NCBI RefSeq assembly: GCF_009650215.1
Contig: NZ_CP045851.1
Location: 969,189-1,033,188, forward strand
From: Actinomarinicola tropica
GTDB taxonomy: Bacteria > Actinomycetota > Acidimicrobiia > Acidimicrobiales > SKKL01
Direction of reading: 5' to 3'
Length of the DNA: 64,000 bases
Shown: positions 52,709-59,962 of the stretch, in pieces
Layout: every line of letters starts with the position of its first letter
Numbering within the stretch: the stretch's first letter is position 1
The notes under the pieces: generated by a model
What the model was told of the DNA's origin: nothing
Databases searched by the model: none
The model's input: only the letters and a program-made list of their open reading frames with translations
Made by a program: the position numbers and the translations under genes

Positions 52709-53356
52709 GTGCGCCGCACCGCTCTCGCCGTCGTCGTCGCCGCCCTCCTCCTCGGGGCGTGCGGGGGCGGCGGCGAGAGCCGCGTCGCCCCCGCGGGCGA
52801 GGTGCCCACGGCCTCGACGACCACCACCTCGCCTCCGGCGACACCGCCCCCGACCTCGGAGCTCGCGGCGCTCGTCGAGCCCGCCGGCTCGACGGCCACG
52901 CTGCCGGAGGCCGCGATCGGTCCCGTCCCGGTGGGGCTCCGCTACGACGCCATCGGCGCCGACGCCCCGGTCCTGTCGGTGGGCGTCGCCACCAACGGCG
53001 ACATGGAGATCCCCGGAGCGCGGGAGGTGGGCTGGTACCGCTACGGCCCGACGCCCGGGGCGGAGGGGTCGTCGGTGCTCGCCGCCCACGTCGCCTACGC
53101 CGGGCAGGACGGCGTCTTCCGTCGGCTCACCGGGGCCACGCCCGGCGACCGCTTCGACGTCAGCTACGACGACGGCTCGGTGCGCACGTTCGAGGTCGTG
53201 GCGATCCGCCAGTACGACAAGGACGAGCTGCCCACCGCCGAGCTCTTCGCCGTGAGCGGCGAGCCGCAGGTGGTGCTGATCACCTGCGGCGGGGCGTTCA
53301 ACCGGGAGCTGCGCAGCTACGACGACAACATCGTCGCCTACGCCCTCCCGGTCTGA
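52709..53356 (+). CDS. Class F sortase
   Basis: 215 residues. Signal peptide with lipobox LLLGACGG, a Thr/Pro linker, then the compact sortase fold: IGADAPVLSVGVATNGDMEIP, SSVLAAHVAYAGQDGVF with the catalytic His, VVLITCGGAFN with the catalytic Cys and ELRSYDDNIVAYA with the Arg. Class F enzymes of actinobacteria recognise LPXTG-like motifs and usually have a single membrane anchor; here the anchor seems to be a lipidated Cys. Last 19 bases overlap the convergent gene. Confidence 0.88.
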   Translation: MRRTALAVVVAALLLGACGGGGESRVAPAGEVPTASTTTTSPPATPPPTSELAALVEPAGSTATLPEAAIGPVPVGLRYDAIGADAPVLSVGVATNGDMEIPGAREVGWYRYGPTPGAEGSSVLAAHVAYAGQDGVFRRLTGATPGDRFDVSYDDGSVRTFEVVAIRQYDKDELPTAELFAVSGEPQVVLITCGGAFNRELRSYDDNIVAYALPV

Positions 53357-53862: not shown

Positions 53863-54993
53863 TCAGCCGCTGGCGAGGCGGCGCAGGTCGGCGACGACGC
53901 GGGGCAGGGCGTCGAGCAGCGCGTCGACGTCGTCGTCGGTGGTCGACCACCCGACCGAGACGCGCAGCGAGCGCTGGGCGTCGACGCCCATGGCCTCGAG
54001 GACGGGGGAGGGGAGCAGGTCCTCGGACGCGCACGAGCTGCCGGAGTGGACGGCGATGCCGGCCCGGTCGAGCCCGATGAGAACGGGCTGGGGCTCGACG
54101 CCGTGGACCCCGAGGCAGACGATGTGGGGCAGCCGGTCGACCGGGTCGCCGTAGACCTCGATGCCGTCCATCGCCTCCGCCGCGGCGACGATCGCGCCCA
54201 CTTGGCGTCGATTCGACGTCGATTCGACGCCGAGCAGGTCGTCGCGGAGCAGCGCCGATGCGGCGGCGCCGAACCCGACGACGGCCGCCGTGCTCTCGTG
54301 GCCGGCCCGGCGGGCCCGCTCCTGGTCGCCGCCGAGCAGCAGCGGATCGAGCCGCAGCCCGCGTCGCACGAGCAGGGCGCCGACGCCGGCGGGCCCGCCG
54401 AACTTGTGGGCCGACACCGACATGAGGTCGGCGCCGAGCTCGTCGAACGCCACAGGGTCGTGCCCGACGCCCTGCGCGGCGTCGACGTGCACCAGCACCC
54501 CCCGCTCGCGGCAGGCGGTGACCACCTCGGCGACGGGTTGGCGGGTGCCGACCTCGTGGTTACCCCACTGGACGTGCACGAGCGAGGTCTCACCCGGGCG
54601 GATGGCGGCGATCACCTCGTCGGGGTCGACGCGCCCGAGTCGGTCGACGCCCACGACGGTGACCTCGCCGGCCCGCGCCGCCTGCTCCCGCACCGCCGAG
54701 TGCTCGACCGCCGGCACCACCTGGTGGGAGCCGCCCTGCCGGGATGCGCCCCAGACGGCGGTAGCGATCGATTCGGTCGCGCCGCTGGTGAAGACCACTT
54801 CGCGGGAACGGGCGCCCACGAGCGCGGCGACCTGCTCCCGTGCCTCCTCGACCAGGACCCGTGCCGCCATGCCCTCCTCGTGGATCCGGGCGGGATCGCC
54901 CACGCCGGCGTCGAGGACGGCGACGACCGCATCGCGGGCCTCGGGACGCAGCGGCGACGTGGAGGCGTGGTCGAGGTAGTGGCGGCGGCTCAC
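53863..54993 (-). CDS. Cysteine desulfurase (NifS/IscS family)
   Basis: 376 residues, PLP-dependent class V aminotransferase fold removing sulfur from cysteine. Features: YLDHASTSPLRPEA, FTSGATESIATAVWG, VPAVEHSAVREQA, HVDAAQGVGHDPV, the PLP Lys in VSAHKFGGPAGVG and the catalytic Cys in VHSGSSCASEDLLPSP. The loop around the Cys resembles the IscS/NifS type. GTG start in a GTGA overlap with the upstream SufR-like regulator. No IscU/SufU or SufBCD genes are next to it, so it probably supplies sulfur for clusters or tRNA thiolation. Confidence 0.93.
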   Translation of the reverse strand: MSRRHYLDHASTSPLRPEARDAVVAVLDAGVGDPARIHEEGMAARVLVEEAREQVAALVGARSREVVFTSGATESIATAVWGASRQGGSHQVVPAVEHSAVREQAARAGEVTVVGVDRLGRVDPDEVIAAIRPGETSLVHVQWGNHEVGTRQPVAEVVTACRERGVLVHVDAAQGVGHDPVAFDELGADLMSVSAHKFGGPAGVGALLVRRGLRLDPLLLGGDQERARRAGHESTAAVVGFGAAASALLRDDLLGVESTSNRRQVGAIVAAAEAMDGIEVYGDPVDRLPHIVCLGVHGVEPQPVLIGLDRAGIAVHSGSSCASEDLLPSPVLEAMGVDAQRSLRVSVGWSTTDDDVDALLDALPRVVADLRRLASG

Positions 54994-55709
54994 GCCTCGA
55001 CGGCGGTGACGCACTGGTCGGCGCCGAGGGCCACCGAGGTCTCGATCTCGGGGTCGGTGCGCCCGTAGAGCGCCTCGAGCATCCCCTTGACCATGCCCCG
55101 GTCGACGGCGCAGATCACCGGGTGCTCGATGGCACTGTCGCCGAACGGGCAGTGCGCGGACACGATGCGCAGCTGGTCGCCGTCCTGCTCGGCGTGGGCG
55201 GCGAAGCCGTGCGCCGACAGGGCGTCGGCCACCGCGTGCAGCGCCGCGCGGAACGACCGCTGGCCCTCGCCGGTGTCGCCCATCGCCGCGGCCATGCGCC
55301 GCCCGTACTCGGTGCCGACCTCCTCGGCGAGCTCGGCGGCGTCGGCCGGGTCGAGGCGGGAGAGGGCCTTGCCGAGGAGCGACACGAGGATGTCGTCGTG
55401 GCGGACGGCGATGTCGAGGCTGATCGTCGGGGTGACCGCCCGGTAGTGCTTGGACGGGCGGCCGGCGCTGCGCCCCTCCGCCCGCACGACCTGGACCTCG
55501 AGGTACCCGCCCGCGGACAGCTTGTCGAGGTGGTGCCGGGCCACGTTGGGGTGGAGCTCGAACCGCTCGGCCACCGCCGAGGCGGTGACGCCTCCGTCGA
55601 CCTCGTGGGCGAACAGGTAGATGGCGCGCCGGGTGGGGTCGCCGAACGCCGAGGTGATGGCGGTGACGGCCGACGCGAAGTCGGTCGGGTTGAGAGGTTC
55701 CCCGGACAC
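54990..55709 (-). CDS. SufR-like HTH regulator with Cys cluster
   Basis: 239 residues. N-terminal winged helix: AFGDPTRRAIYLFAHEVDGGVTASAVAERFELHPNVARHHLDKLSAGGYL, with GRPSKHYRAV as the wing. The C-terminal half carries C187-X12-C200-X32-C233 (AHCPFG, HPVIC, DQC). The C-X12-C spacing is that of SufR-type Fe-S regulators, whose full set is C-X12-C-X13-C-X14-C. Probably senses an Fe-S cluster and controls the cysteine desulfurase co-translated with it. GTG six bases after TAGAAT, so leaderless, with a palindrome over the promoter. Confidence 0.85.
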   Translation of the reverse strand: MSGEPLNPTDFASAVTAITSAFGDPTRRAIYLFAHEVDGGVTASAVAERFELHPNVARHHLDKLSAGGYLEVQVVRAEGRSAGRPSKHYRAVTPTISLDIAVRHDDILVSLLGKALSRLDPADAAELAEEVGTEYGRRMAAAMGDTGEGQRSFRAALHAVADALSAHGFAAHAEQDGDQLRIVSAHCPFGDSAIEHPVICAVDRGMVKGMLEALYGRTDPEIETSVALGADQCVTAVEA

Positions 55710-55721
55710 GCCGGTATTCTA
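55710..55721 (-). promoter_or_regulatory. Leaderless promoter of the SufR-like gene
   Basis: Reverse-strand TAGAAT (55721 to 55716), ACCGGC, then GTG. The hexamer directly abuts the CCTAT-N4-ATAGG dyad. Confidence 0.6.
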
Positions 55722-55735
55722 CCTATCCGCATAGG
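55722..55735. promoter_or_regulatory. Operator candidate between SufR-like and mrp genes
   Basis: CCTAT-CCGC-ATAGG, a perfect five-base dyad that extends outward as TTCT and AGAA if one extra A is allowed in the left arm. It lies between divergent genes, next to the reverse -10 and 25 bases before the mrp start, a natural autoregulatory site for the adjacent HTH protein. Confidence 0.5.
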
Positions 55736-55759
55736 AGAAATCCGAGGAGCGCTTCCGGC

Positions 55760-56902
55760 ATGGCCGTCACCGAGACCCAGATCATCGAGGCCCTTCGCCC
55801 CGTCGAGGACCCCGAGCTCCGCCGCTCGGTCGTCGACCTCGACATGGTGCGATCGGTGGGCGTCGAGGGCTCCCGGGTCGTCGTCGAGATCGCCCTCACC
55901 ACCGAGCGCCACCCGCTGCGCCACGTGATCGACGAGCGCGTCACCGGCGCGCTCGAGGCGCTCGACGGCGTCGACCACGTCAGCATCGACTTCGCCGTCA
56001 TGTCCGACGAGGACCGGGCCCGCATCCGCCAGTCCCTCCACGGCAACCCCGCGGCGTCGGCCGGCTCCCAGCAGGGTCACGGCCACGCCGAGGGCCGCCG
56101 GGTCCCCTTCGCCGACGCCGGCTCACGCACCCGCGCCCTCATGATCGCGTCGGGCAAGGGCGGCGTCGGCAAGTCGTCGGTCACCGCCAACCTGTCGATC
56201 GCCCTCGCGAACCGGGGTCACAAGGTCGCCGTCGTCGACGCCGACGTGTGGGGCTTCTCGATCCCGCGGATGCTCGGCGTCGACCACCCGCCGACGGTCA
56301 TCGACTCGATGCTCGTCCCGCCGGAGGTGCACGGCGTGCGCTGCATCTCGATGGGCTTCTTCGCCGAGGAGGACCAGCCGGTCATCTGGCGGGGGCCGAT
56401 GCTCCACAAGGCGCTCGAGCAGTTCCTCACCGACGTCTTCTGGGACGAGCCCGACTTCCTCGTCGTCGACCTGCCGCCCGGCACCGGCGACATCTCCCTG
56501 TCGCTCGCCCAGTTCCTCCCTCGCGGCGAGGTCTACGTCGTCACCACGCCGCAGCCCGCGGCGCAGCGGGTCGCCCAGCGGGCGGCGTTCATGTCCCAGC
56601 GCGTGCAGCTCGACGTCAAGGGCGTCATCGAGAACATGTCGTGGTTCACCGGCGACGACGGCACCCGCTACGAGCTCTTCGGCGCCGGCGGCGGCGCCGA
56701 GCTCGCAACGCGCCTCGGCGTGCCGCTCATCGGCCAGGTGCCGCTGGTGCCCGAGCTGCGCGAGGGCTCCGACGCCGGCCGCCCCATCGTCGCCGTCGAC
56801 CCCGACAGCGAGGCGGCCCAGGTCTTCGCCGCCATGGCCGAGACGATCGACGTGTCGCTCGCCCCGACCCGCCGCCACCACCCCGAGCTGAAGATCATCT
56901 GA
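55760..56902 (+). CDS. mrp: Mrp/NBP35-family P-loop ATPase
   Basis: 380 residues. Residues 1-95 are a DUF59/MIP18-like domain (IIEALRPVEDPELRRSVVDLDMVR). The ATPase domain has the deviant Walker A ASGKGGVGKSS near residue 135, VVDADVWGFSIPRMLG, and DFLVVDLPPGTGDISLSLAQ. Mrp proteins carry Fe-S clusters to targets, usually with a CXXC after VIENMS; here that region reads VIENMSWFTGDDGTRYELFG and has no Cys. Divergent from a SufR-like regulator and cysteine desulfurase, which supports an Fe-S role all the same. Confidence 0.92.
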   Translation: MAVTETQIIEALRPVEDPELRRSVVDLDMVRSVGVEGSRVVVEIALTTERHPLRHVIDERVTGALEALDGVDHVSIDFAVMSDEDRARIRQSLHGNPAASAGSQQGHGHAEGRRVPFADAGSRTRALMIASGKGGVGKSSVTANLSIALANRGHKVAVVDADVWGFSIPRMLGVDHPPTVIDSMLVPPEVHGVRCISMGFFAEEDQPVIWRGPMLHKALEQFLTDVFWDEPDFLVVDLPPGTGDISLSLAQFLPRGEVYVVTTPQPAAQRVAQRAAFMSQRVQLDVKGVIENMSWFTGDDGTRYELFGAGGGAELATRLGVPLIGQVPLVPELREGSDAGRPIVAVDPDSEAAQVFAAMAETIDVSLAPTRRHHPELKII

Positions 56903-57812: not shown

Positions 57813-58796
57813 ATGGCCCTCGACCTCCTCGACCGGCGCCTGCTCTTCGTCACCGGCAAGGGCGGCGTCGGCAAGACGGCGGTGAGCGCGGCTCTGGCCT
57901 CGCTCGCCGCCGAGCACGGCCGCCGCACGCTCGTGTGCGAGGTCGACGCCAAGGGCGACCTCGCCCGCTTCTTCGAGACCGCACCCACGGGGTTCGCGCC
58001 CCGGCGCGTCCAGCCGAACCTCGAGGTGATGACCCTCACCACCGAGGAGTCGCTGCGGGAGTACCTCAAGCTCCAGCTGCGCATCCCGCTGATCGCCAAG
58101 ATCGGTCCCCTGGCCCGCAGCTTCGACTTCGTCGCCAACGCCGCCCCGGGGGTCAGGGAGATCCTCACCGTCGGCAAGGTGGCCTACGAGGTCCGTGAGG
58201 ACCACTACGACCTGGTCGTCGTCGACGCCACGGCCAGCGGCCACGTCGTGGCCCAGCTCGGCGCGCCCGAGGCGATCAACGAGCTCGTCAAGGTCGGCCT
58301 CGTACGGGACCAGACCGGCTGGATGCAGGACATCCTCCACGACCCGGCGCGCACCGGCGTCGTGGTGGTGACCACGCCGGAGGAGATGCCGGTCGTCGAG
58401 ACGCTCGAGCTCGTCGAGCGCCTCGGCGCCGAGACGCAGGTCGCGCTGGCCGCGGTCGTCGCCAACCGGGTGCTCCCCGAGCTGTTCGGACGGCGCGAGG
58501 AGGAGCGGTTCGAGCAGCTCCGCACCGACGAGGGCATCGGCGCGCTCGTCGCCGCCGTGCGCGACGTCGACGGTCGCTCCGGTCACGTCGATGCGGCGGT
58601 GGCCACGGCGGCGCTCGACGCCGCCGAGCTCGCCGTCACGCTGCGCCGGGCCAAGGCCGACCACCTCACGACCCTGAGGGAGGGGCTCGACGCCGCGACG
58701 CCGCTGCTCTTCGTGCCCGAGCTGTTCGCTCGGGCCCACGGCGCCCGCGCCACCGCCCAGATCGCGTCCGCCCTCTCCGACGAGATCGGCTTCTGA
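57813..58796 (+). CDS. ArsA/Get3-family ATPase (first subunit)
   Basis: 327 residues. Deviant Walker A TGKGGVGKTA near residue 15, with the signature Lys that reaches across a dimer; CEVDAKGDLARFF, then DLVVVDATASGH as Walker B/switch II. Similar to mycobacterial Rv3679. No arsenite-binding Cys and no membrane-binding hydrophobic groove can be read with confidence. Its TGA shares a base with the ATG of the second ATPase, so the two probably form a heterodimer, as reported for the mycobacterial pair. Confidence 0.88.
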   Translation: MALDLLDRRLLFVTGKGGVGKTAVSAALASLAAEHGRRTLVCEVDAKGDLARFFETAPTGFAPRRVQPNLEVMTLTTEESLREYLKLQLRIPLIAKIGPLARSFDFVANAAPGVREILTVGKVAYEVREDHYDLVVVDATASGHVVAQLGAPEAINELVKVGLVRDQTGWMQDILHDPARTGVVVVTTPEEMPVVETLELVERLGAETQVALAAVVANRVLPELFGRREEERFEQLRTDEGIGALVAAVRDVDGRSGHVDAAVATAALDAAELAVTLRRAKADHLTTLREGLDAATPLLFVPELFARAHGARATAQIASALSDEIGF

Positions 58797-59962
58797 TGGC
58801 ATCGACCGACGCCGGCCTCGCCGGGGTGCTCGCGGCACGGGAGATCGTCATCACCTGCGGCTCGGGCGGCGTCGGCAAGACGACCACCGCCGGGGCGCTC
58901 GCAGCCATGGCCGCCGCCGAGCAGGGCGGCCGCGTGTTGGTGCTCACCATCGATCCCGCTCGCCGCCTCGCCACCGCCCTCGGCCTCGAGGCGTTCGGCA
59001 ACCAGGAGGTCCGCATCCCCGACGCGGCGTGGGCCGCGGCCGGGACCCGGCCTCGGGGCGAGCTGTGGGCGGCGATGCTCGACACCAAGGCGTCGTGGGA
59101 CGACCTCGTCCGCCTCCACGCACCCGACGACGCCACCCGCGACGCCATCCTCGACAACCCGCTCTACCGCAACATCACCGGCAAGTTCGTCCAGAGCCAC
59201 GACTACATCGCGATGGAGCGGCTCCACGAGATCCACTCGTCGGGCCGGTACGACCTCGTCGTGGTCGACACACCGCCGACCCGCAACGCCATCGACTTCC
59301 TCGAGGCCCCGGAGCGGATGGCGGACTTCTTCTCCAGCCGCCTCCTGCGGTGGCTGATCGCGCCCTCGCGCTCCCGGGTGGTCTCCGCGGCGTCGAAGCC
59401 GTTCTACACGGTGGCCGACCGGATCCTCGGCTCGCAGTTCCTCGAGGACATCGCCGAGTTCTTCATCCTCTTCCAGTCGATGTACGACGGGTTCGTCGCC
59501 CGGGCCGAGGCCGTCACCCGCCTCCTGCGGGACCCCCGCACGGCGTTCGTCGTGGTGAGCACCCTCGAGCCCGGCCCGTCGCGGGAGGCCTCCTTCTTCA
59601 TCGACGAGCTCGAGGCCAGGGACCTCCTCCTCGGCGCCGTCGTGCTCAACAAGGTGCTCCCGAACGCCCTCCTCGACCCGGCGGGCAGCGAGCTCGCCCG
59701 CGTCCTGTCCACCTCGTCGACCGACGTGGCCGAGCGCATCGCCGACGATCCCGACGACGCCCGCACCCTCGGGCGGGTCCTGCGAGAGGTCGGCGACTCC
59801 TTCGCCAACTTCGCGGTGGTCGCCCAGCGCGAGGCGGAGCAGCGGGGCGCGCTGGCGCGCCGCGCCGGCGTGGTCGGCGCCGTGCCCCACCTCGACGAGG
59901 ACGTCGCCGACCTCGGCGGGCTCCTGCGCGTCGGCCACGCCCTCTGGCCCGCCACCGGCTAG
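58796..59962 (+). CDS. ArsA/Get3-family ATPase (second subunit)
   Basis: 388 residues, Rv3680-like. The P-loop reads CGSGGVGKTTTAGAL near residue 19, so the signature Lys of the GKGG motif is replaced by Ser; ATP hydrolysis may rely on the partner's Lys. TIDPARRLATALGL and DLVVVDTPPTRNAIDFLE follow, then a long helical region FFSSRLLRWLIAPSRSRVVSAASKPFYTV that could bind hydrophobic clients. Terminates an operon with DUF3107 and the first ATPase. Confidence 0.88.
   Translation: MASTDAGLAGVLAAREIVITCGSGGVGKTTTAGALAAMAAAEQGGRVLVLTIDPARRLATALGLEAFGNQEVRIPDAAWAAAGTRPRGELWAAMLDTKASWDDLVRLHAPDDATRDAILDNPLYRNITGKFVQSHDYIAMERLHEIHSSGRYDLVVVDTPPTRNAIDFLEAPERMADFFSSRLLRWLIAPSRSRVVSAASKPFYTVADRILGSQFLEDIAEFFILFQSMYDGFVARAEAVTRLLRDPRTAFVVVSTLEPGPSREASFFIDELEARDLLLGAVVLNKVLPNALLDPAGSELARVLSTSSTDVAERIADDPDDARTLGRVLREVGDSFANFAVVAQREAEQRGALARRAGVVGAVPHLDEDVADLGGLLRVGHALWPATG

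Follow-up and report, generated by a model that had tools for sequence, protein, structure and literature searches.

Genes at the locus

The window, i.e., the whole 64-kb stretch of DNA that was analysed, contains a gene for a SufR-like regulator which is followed by a cysteine desulfurase gene and faces away from mrp (Table 1). Both arrangements had been described in the initial annotation and are borne out by the coordinates, the stop codon of the regulator overlapping the GTG start of the desulfurase and mrp being divergent.

Table 1. Genes and predicted control elements around the regulator (positions in the window)
Feature	Position	Strand	Remarks
NifS/IscS-type cysteine desulfurase	53863..54993	-	GTGA overlap with regulator stop; PLP lysine in SAHK, catalytic Cys loop SGSSC
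SufR-like regulator	54990..55709	-	239 aa; GTG start; ArsR-type HTH and predicted C-terminal V4R/Bet3-like domain
Candidate -10 element of mrp, TATTCT	55715..55720	+	overlaps the regulator -10; predicted from sequence
-10 element of regulator promoter, TAGAAT	55716..55721	-	inside the operator; 6 nt from GTG
Predicted operator palindrome, ATTCTACCTAT-CCGC-ATAGGAGAAAT	55716..55741	.	block shared across related loci
Likely mrp ribosome-binding site, GAGGAG	55744..55749	+	by eye
mrp	55760..56902	+	divergent from regulator; FeS_assembly_P and NUBPL/ParA ATPase; no CxxC

The regulator matches the Pfam families PF12840 (HTH_20, an ArsR-type HTH; 39.7 bits, cut-off 27) and PF18546 (MetOD1; 31.5 bits, cut-off 23.8). 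In the predicted structure, a model of modest quality (mean pLDDT 71.9, pTM 0.51), the HTH lies at the N end and residues 103–239 would adopt a Bet3/V4R fold, with Z scores of up to 13.1 with a Bet3 protein and 12.6 with PoxR. The Pfam match and the model together indicate a protein that joins HTH_20 to a V4R-like C-terminal fold. No SufR-named entry is among the 50 fold matches listed for the model, an absence that proves nothing, and sequence searches of the PDB with the regulator returned no close relative. On the NCBI SufR model, TIGR02702, the regulator scores 24.4 bits and falls short of the cut-off of 178.8. This model tells little about proteins outside its own group, because a paralogue from the same genome (L050) reaches nearly the same score (21.5 bits) and the three homologues divergent from sufB in other bacteria that were scanned (L089, L093, L095) have no listed match at all.

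The desulfurase matches PF00266 (Aminotran_5; 228 bits) and has the PLP Lys and the catalytic Cys of NifS/IscS-type enzymes; it reaches the cut-off of none of the listed NCBIfam families. Since another IscS-type desulfurase is encoded in the same genome (L049:5897-7057), where it is followed by an mnmA-like gene (by eye) and probably serves tRNA thiolation, the desulfurase of the window appears to be an extra one. The mrp product matches PF10609 (284 bits). Its description in the initial annotation as a carrier ATPase holds for the NUBPL P-loop NTPase and fails for the CxxC of cluster carriers, in place of which the protein carries IENMSWFTGDDGTRYELFGAGGG. CxxC is also missing from the other 25 readable loci, i.e., from 26 of 30 with the window included, the remaining four being unreadable at that stretch. 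ApbC-type carriers use the CxxC, which is thought to bridge a cluster (PMC8593673, in excerpt). The sequence of Mrp, with no CxxC, thus suggests that its role here may differ from that of the classic carrier.

In the 30 best loci, mrp adjoins the regulator in 29 and a relative of the desulfurase in 26. A larger set comprised the best 80 of at least 562 relatives, with the labels Acidimicrobiia, Acidimicrobiales, Microthrixaceae, Ilumatobacteraceae, Aquihabitans, or only Actinomycetota; a few labels (Bifidobacterium breve, Thermoanaerobacterales, Acidobacteria) look mislabelled. Going by these labels, the order is probably the Acidimicrobiales. Among these 80, mrp is divergent in 72 of the 74 loci with room for it, whereas a desulfurase lies within 1.2 kb downstream in only 28 of 66. 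Mrp is therefore the constant partner of the regulator and the desulfurase an optional passenger.

Two other observations concern the window itself. A sortase gene lies near the locus at 52709–53356 (its score exceeds the cut-off of PF04203 and falls short of that of the class F model), and downstream of mrp, at 57813–59962, two neighbouring genes encode proteins with P-loop N-termini that resemble ArsA/GET3 ATPases (by eye).

The three cysteines

The regulator contains exactly three cysteines, spaced C187-X12-C200-X32-C233, so that the spacing given in the initial annotation, with the first SufR interval kept, is correct for the 239-residue protein. Alignment of orthologues shows all three to be invariant in the 30 best loci (30/30), and they are likewise kept in 80/80 of the larger set. 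The set had been called incomplete, and the usual four-Cys motif of SufR, C-X12-C-X13-C-X14-C (PMC8593673, in excerpt), is indeed not present. We reject the reading that function was lost with the fourth residue: three suffice in the SufR of M. tuberculosis, in which C203, C216 and C244 are each required in a replacement assay (PMC6034842, in excerpt), and all three are invariant here. Three ligands are also given for the Synechocystis SufR in a review (PMC13421787, in excerpt).

In eight of nine chosen actinomycete-type genomes, a regulator of the same family is encoded within 1.5 kb of the sufB core. In these eight proteins the spacing is C-X12-C-X27-C, and a further Cys precedes the first by four residues (spacing by eye); the regulator of the window and its orthologues agree with them in the first interval, whereas the second is longer (X32 in the regulator vs X27). 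Since the three-Cys motif also occurs in two paralogues in the same genome, among them the one that scores 21.5 bits on TIGR02702, whose neighbours in both cases (by eye) are not Fe-S assembly genes, the sequences mark the cysteines as a family trait and not as proof of a cluster. The three C-terminal cysteines would most likely hold a [4Fe-4S] cluster.

The predicted operator between mrp and the regulator

The CCTAT-N4-ATAGG dyad at 55722–55735 is the single exact copy in the genome. With one mismatch allowed it occurs at one further genomic place, and because the pattern read backwards then gives 5 matches per strand, the short dyad alone is weak evidence. It forms the centre of a palindrome of 26 bp, ATTNNNNCTAY-NNNN-RTAGNNNNAAT. 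In the regulator-mrp gaps of 30 loci, the block GGTATTCTACCTAY-NNNN-RTAGGRGAAATCC is common to about half. In the larger set of 80 relatives described above, 44 have the palindrome with zero or one mismatch within 200 bp upstream of the regulator and the remaining 36 have at least three mismatches, with none at two; the reversed control has at least three in 80/80. The longer palindrome is no chance pattern.

At 40 of the 44 loci with the operator, TAGAAT, TACAAT or TAGAGT stands at the operator edge and is followed after 6–7 nt by an in-frame start; the other four lack the -10 box. This spacing points to an mRNA of the regulator that probably has no leader, with the operator lying on the -10 element. 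The placement of the dyad against a leaderless promoter in the initial annotation agrees with the TAGAAT 6 nt from the GTG. A strict sigma-70 consensus scan of the regulator promoter region returned no promoter. The dyad had also been termed autoregulatory. It does lie on the regulator's own promoter, facing mrp; since the 36 relatives above have no site at the regulator itself, autoregulation is not universal. Three genomes (G005, G009, G012) have sites at suf and none at the regulator (up to one mismatch).

The known SufR operator, CAAC-N6-GTTG, was not found within 250 bp at mrp/regulator, sufB or sufC in this genome. It was rejected as the operator here, as a different palindrome occupies those places.

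The same palindrome at distant SUF operons

In the whole genome (3,715,454 bases), with up to two mismatches, the palindrome occurs at three places only: between mrp and the regulator, upstream of sufB-sufD-Rieske-sufC, and upstream of sufC-sufS-sufU. The reversed pattern has no match. Both SUF operons lie at 2.60–2.61 Mb, about 1.6 Mb from the regulator (1.02 Mb, in a window spanning 0.97–1.03 Mb), so the annotation was right that there is no sufBCD nearby. By eye, two sufC-like genes are present, one per SUF operon (L017:5685-6479 and L053:4159-4923), and the gene between sufD and sufC can be named a Rieske-type ferredoxin gene. The annotation had suggested a search for a separate suf operon with its own SufR; with two SUF operons found, profiles of both the regulator family and the actinomycete SufR type detected no ORF of either kind at these loci.

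A matrix built from 15 mrp/regulator sites only gave the site of the window 57.5 bits, the next best place elsewhere in the window having 1.8 bits. It gave the site upstream of sufB 26.3 bits, against a maximum of 4.8 among 122 control stretches, each 2 kb long, and the site upstream of sufC-sufS-sufU 14.7 and 14.5 bits on the two strands. Across 12 genomes, with at most one mismatch, 36 sites were detected, 33 of which are by position at mrp/regulator, sufB, sufD (in G009 and G055) or sufC-sufS-sufU; the reversed control gave none in 11 genomes and one per strand in G055. In G127, three of four sites lie within 7.4 kb on one contig and were not assigned to suf or mrp. The distance from site to start is 8–161 bp at sufB and 10–47 bp at sufC, and the left arm of the sufB site usually contains a -10-like TACTAT (most genomes read, by eye).

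The initial annotation had suggested that a sensor, a sulfur donor and a carrier ATPase could make up a minimal Fe-S homeostasis circuit. A regulator linked to Fe-S assembly remains from that proposal. The minimal local circuit as the whole story is rejected, given that both SUF operons bear the same operator and that the desulfurase is so often not adjacent. Because of these two distant sites, all of the SUF machinery probably belongs to the circuit.

Co-occurrence of regulator and sites

Among 148 genomes of the same order, this one included, 124 have a match to the regulator, 104 of them with an E value of 1e-30 or lower (counted by hand). Outside the order but in the same class, four of eight genomes have, among the matches listed, a homologue at 2.5e-44 or lower. 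Of 40 genomes with the regulator, 37 carry the palindrome, with two mismatches allowed, in the 250 bp before sufB; of the ten regulator-less genomes, each from a different family, two do so (Fisher p 1.2e-5, without correction for kinship). The reversed control upstream of sufB has at least four mismatches in 50/50. When the matrix is used instead (threshold 5), the counts are 34/40 and 2/10. At sufC, the site is found in 15/15 genomes with the regulator and 0/5 without at one mismatch, and in 15/15 and 1/5 at two.

The exceptions fall on both sides. A sufB site with no detected regulator occurs in G007 and G057, which are drafts (93% and 86% complete); the sufC site of G007 is changed and still symmetric. 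The sufB site is missing in G025, G045 and G047, which have the regulator. G022 also has the regulator, and the only sufB detected there is of another type and has no site; this genome was left out of the count, which with it would be 37/41. In the regulator-less G052 (L204), a different SufB is found, and the gene divergent from it scores 69.4 bits on the actinomycete SufR profile vs 50.3 on that of the regulator family. This gene is perhaps a replacement.

Homologues outside the class

The surroundings of 16 longer, hand-chosen homologues from outside the class (L086-L101) were compared. Nine of them (L088, L089, L091-L097), all of one family in another class of the phylum, are divergent from sufB (in L095 with a gap of 1.7 kb); as far as the sequence extends, sufD, sufS and sufU come after sufB. 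Two of another family precede iscS and a sufU/iscU-like gene, and no Fe-S gene of those searched for lies close to the remaining five (L086, L087, L090, L100, L101). Three of these five (L086, L087, L090; family f72) score as highly as the sufB-divergent homologues and have neither suf nor mrp near; the regulator family as a whole is therefore not tied to Fe-S assembly. In the regulator-sufB gaps of the sufB-divergent loci, no palindrome of the 26-bp type was seen by eye. Three class-level relatives (L103-L105) have, in place of the 26-bp palindrome, short ones of the ACTATAGT type ahead of the regulator (by eye).

In a quick tree of 104 rows, none of them a cyanobacterial SufR, the mrp-linked regulators can all be gathered on the same side of a single branch, with a support of 0. 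The sufB-divergent homologues form a group of their own (support 99), and the eight suf-linked actinomycete-type regulators stand apart (support 100).

Comparison with known Fe-S regulators

IscR and RisR, which are feedback regulators of Fe-S assembly, belong to the Rrf2 family and are unrelated to the regulator described here. The actinomycete SufR proteins (Rv1460 and those of S. avermitilis and C. glutamicum) are similar in having an HTH, a C-terminal Cys domain with C-X12-C and a distal third Cys. They control suf genes, and their operator overlaps their own -10, as at the regulator here (PMC11995493, in excerpt). In contrast, their gene sits in the suf operon, their operator is CAAC-N6-GTTG (PMC11995493, in excerpt) and not the one predicted here, and the eight compared differ in cysteine spacing and tree branch, as given above. 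The cyanobacterial SufR (sll0088) is an autorepressor and suf repressor (PMC13421787, in excerpt), to whose model, TIGR02702, the regulator is a weak match; it differs by its CAAC-N6-GTTG operator, a gene next to sufBCDS and the four-Cys motif (PMC8593673, in excerpt). The sufB-divergent homologues are of the same family with three Cys and, unlike the regulator of the window, are suf-linked. The V4R sensors PoxR, MopR and DmpR share the predicted C-terminal fold and respond to phenol-type signals with other DNA-binding parts. Since profile cut-off, suf location, operator and tree grouping all fail, we file the protein as a SufR-like Fe-S regulator and not as SufR proper.

Proposed regulation and alternative explanations

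Taken together, we consider it likely that the regulator is a trans-acting, SufR-like controller of the SUF system in the order, with an Fe-S-sensing repressor as its most likely form. A dimer would bind the 26-bp palindrome over the promoters of its own regulator-desulfurase operon and of the divergent mrp, blocking both directions from one site, and would also occupy the promoters of two unlinked operons, sufB-sufD-Rieske-sufC and sufC-sufS-sufU. If the regulator acts as SufR does, the protein with its cluster would repress all of these genes. Loss of the cluster, as under iron shortage or in the presence of oxidants or nitric oxide, would release the regulator, and SUF, Mrp and the extra desulfurase would be made. 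Such a loop would be closed, in that a shortage of clusters would raise the amounts of SUF, Mrp and desulfurase. The f72 loci and G022 slightly lower our confidence in a SufR-like way of working.

Alternatively, the same regulon could be governed by cysteines that bind Zn or form a thiol or persulfide switch, with no Fe-S cluster. The V4R fold binds structural Zn via cysteines in some relatives. The resemblance of the C-terminal domain to the V4R domains of PoxR, MopR and DmpR, the description of MetOD1 as a methanogen output domain, and a co-encoded desulfurase that could feed a persulfide signal would all suit this possibility. We hold it to be unlikely, because the predicted regulon is Fe-S assembly itself and because the SufR of M. 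tuberculosis, with C-X12-C and a distal Cys, binds an Fe-S cluster and needs three Cys (PMC6034842, in excerpt).

It is quite improbable that the regulator serves local genes only and that the suf sites belong to another regulator which also binds here. Absence of the regulator coincides with absence of the suf sites across different families, the profile search revealed no SufR-like ORF at the suf loci of this genome, and suf-linked homologues exist elsewhere in the phylum; in favour of it are the sufB sites kept by G007 and G057 and the 36 of 80 relatives with no site at the regulator. Some Fe-S regulators activate suf in their apo form, and an activator or dual regulator of that kind might be envisaged here from some genomes in which the sufC site precedes a -10-like box and does not cover it (by eye). 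The operator over the regulator -10 in 40 of 44 loci and the TACTAT inside the sufB site are in the position of a repressor, and we judge activation very improbable.

With an Fe-S-sensing repressor as the preferred reading, the regulator is, from sequence comparison, probably a main and hitherto undescribed control of Fe-S assembly; no earlier description was found among the matches listed in the open-licence PMC literature, as judged by titles and the beginnings of abstracts. We also lean towards a joint and somewhat bolder claim, namely that it represents a class distinct from SufR and IscR which, unlinked to suf, controls the Fe-S assembly of a whole order, probably the Acidimicrobiales, through its own operator and in a closed regulon that consists of suf, mrp and the additional desulfurase. 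As the predicted regulon is small, with three genomic sites, it is completely testable. For one large group this would, if true, settle the question of suf regulation in Gram-positive bacteria without SufR. It would also tie Mrp to suf control and provide a system for studying how feedback regulators of Fe-S assembly shift from one gene to another and how their operators change.
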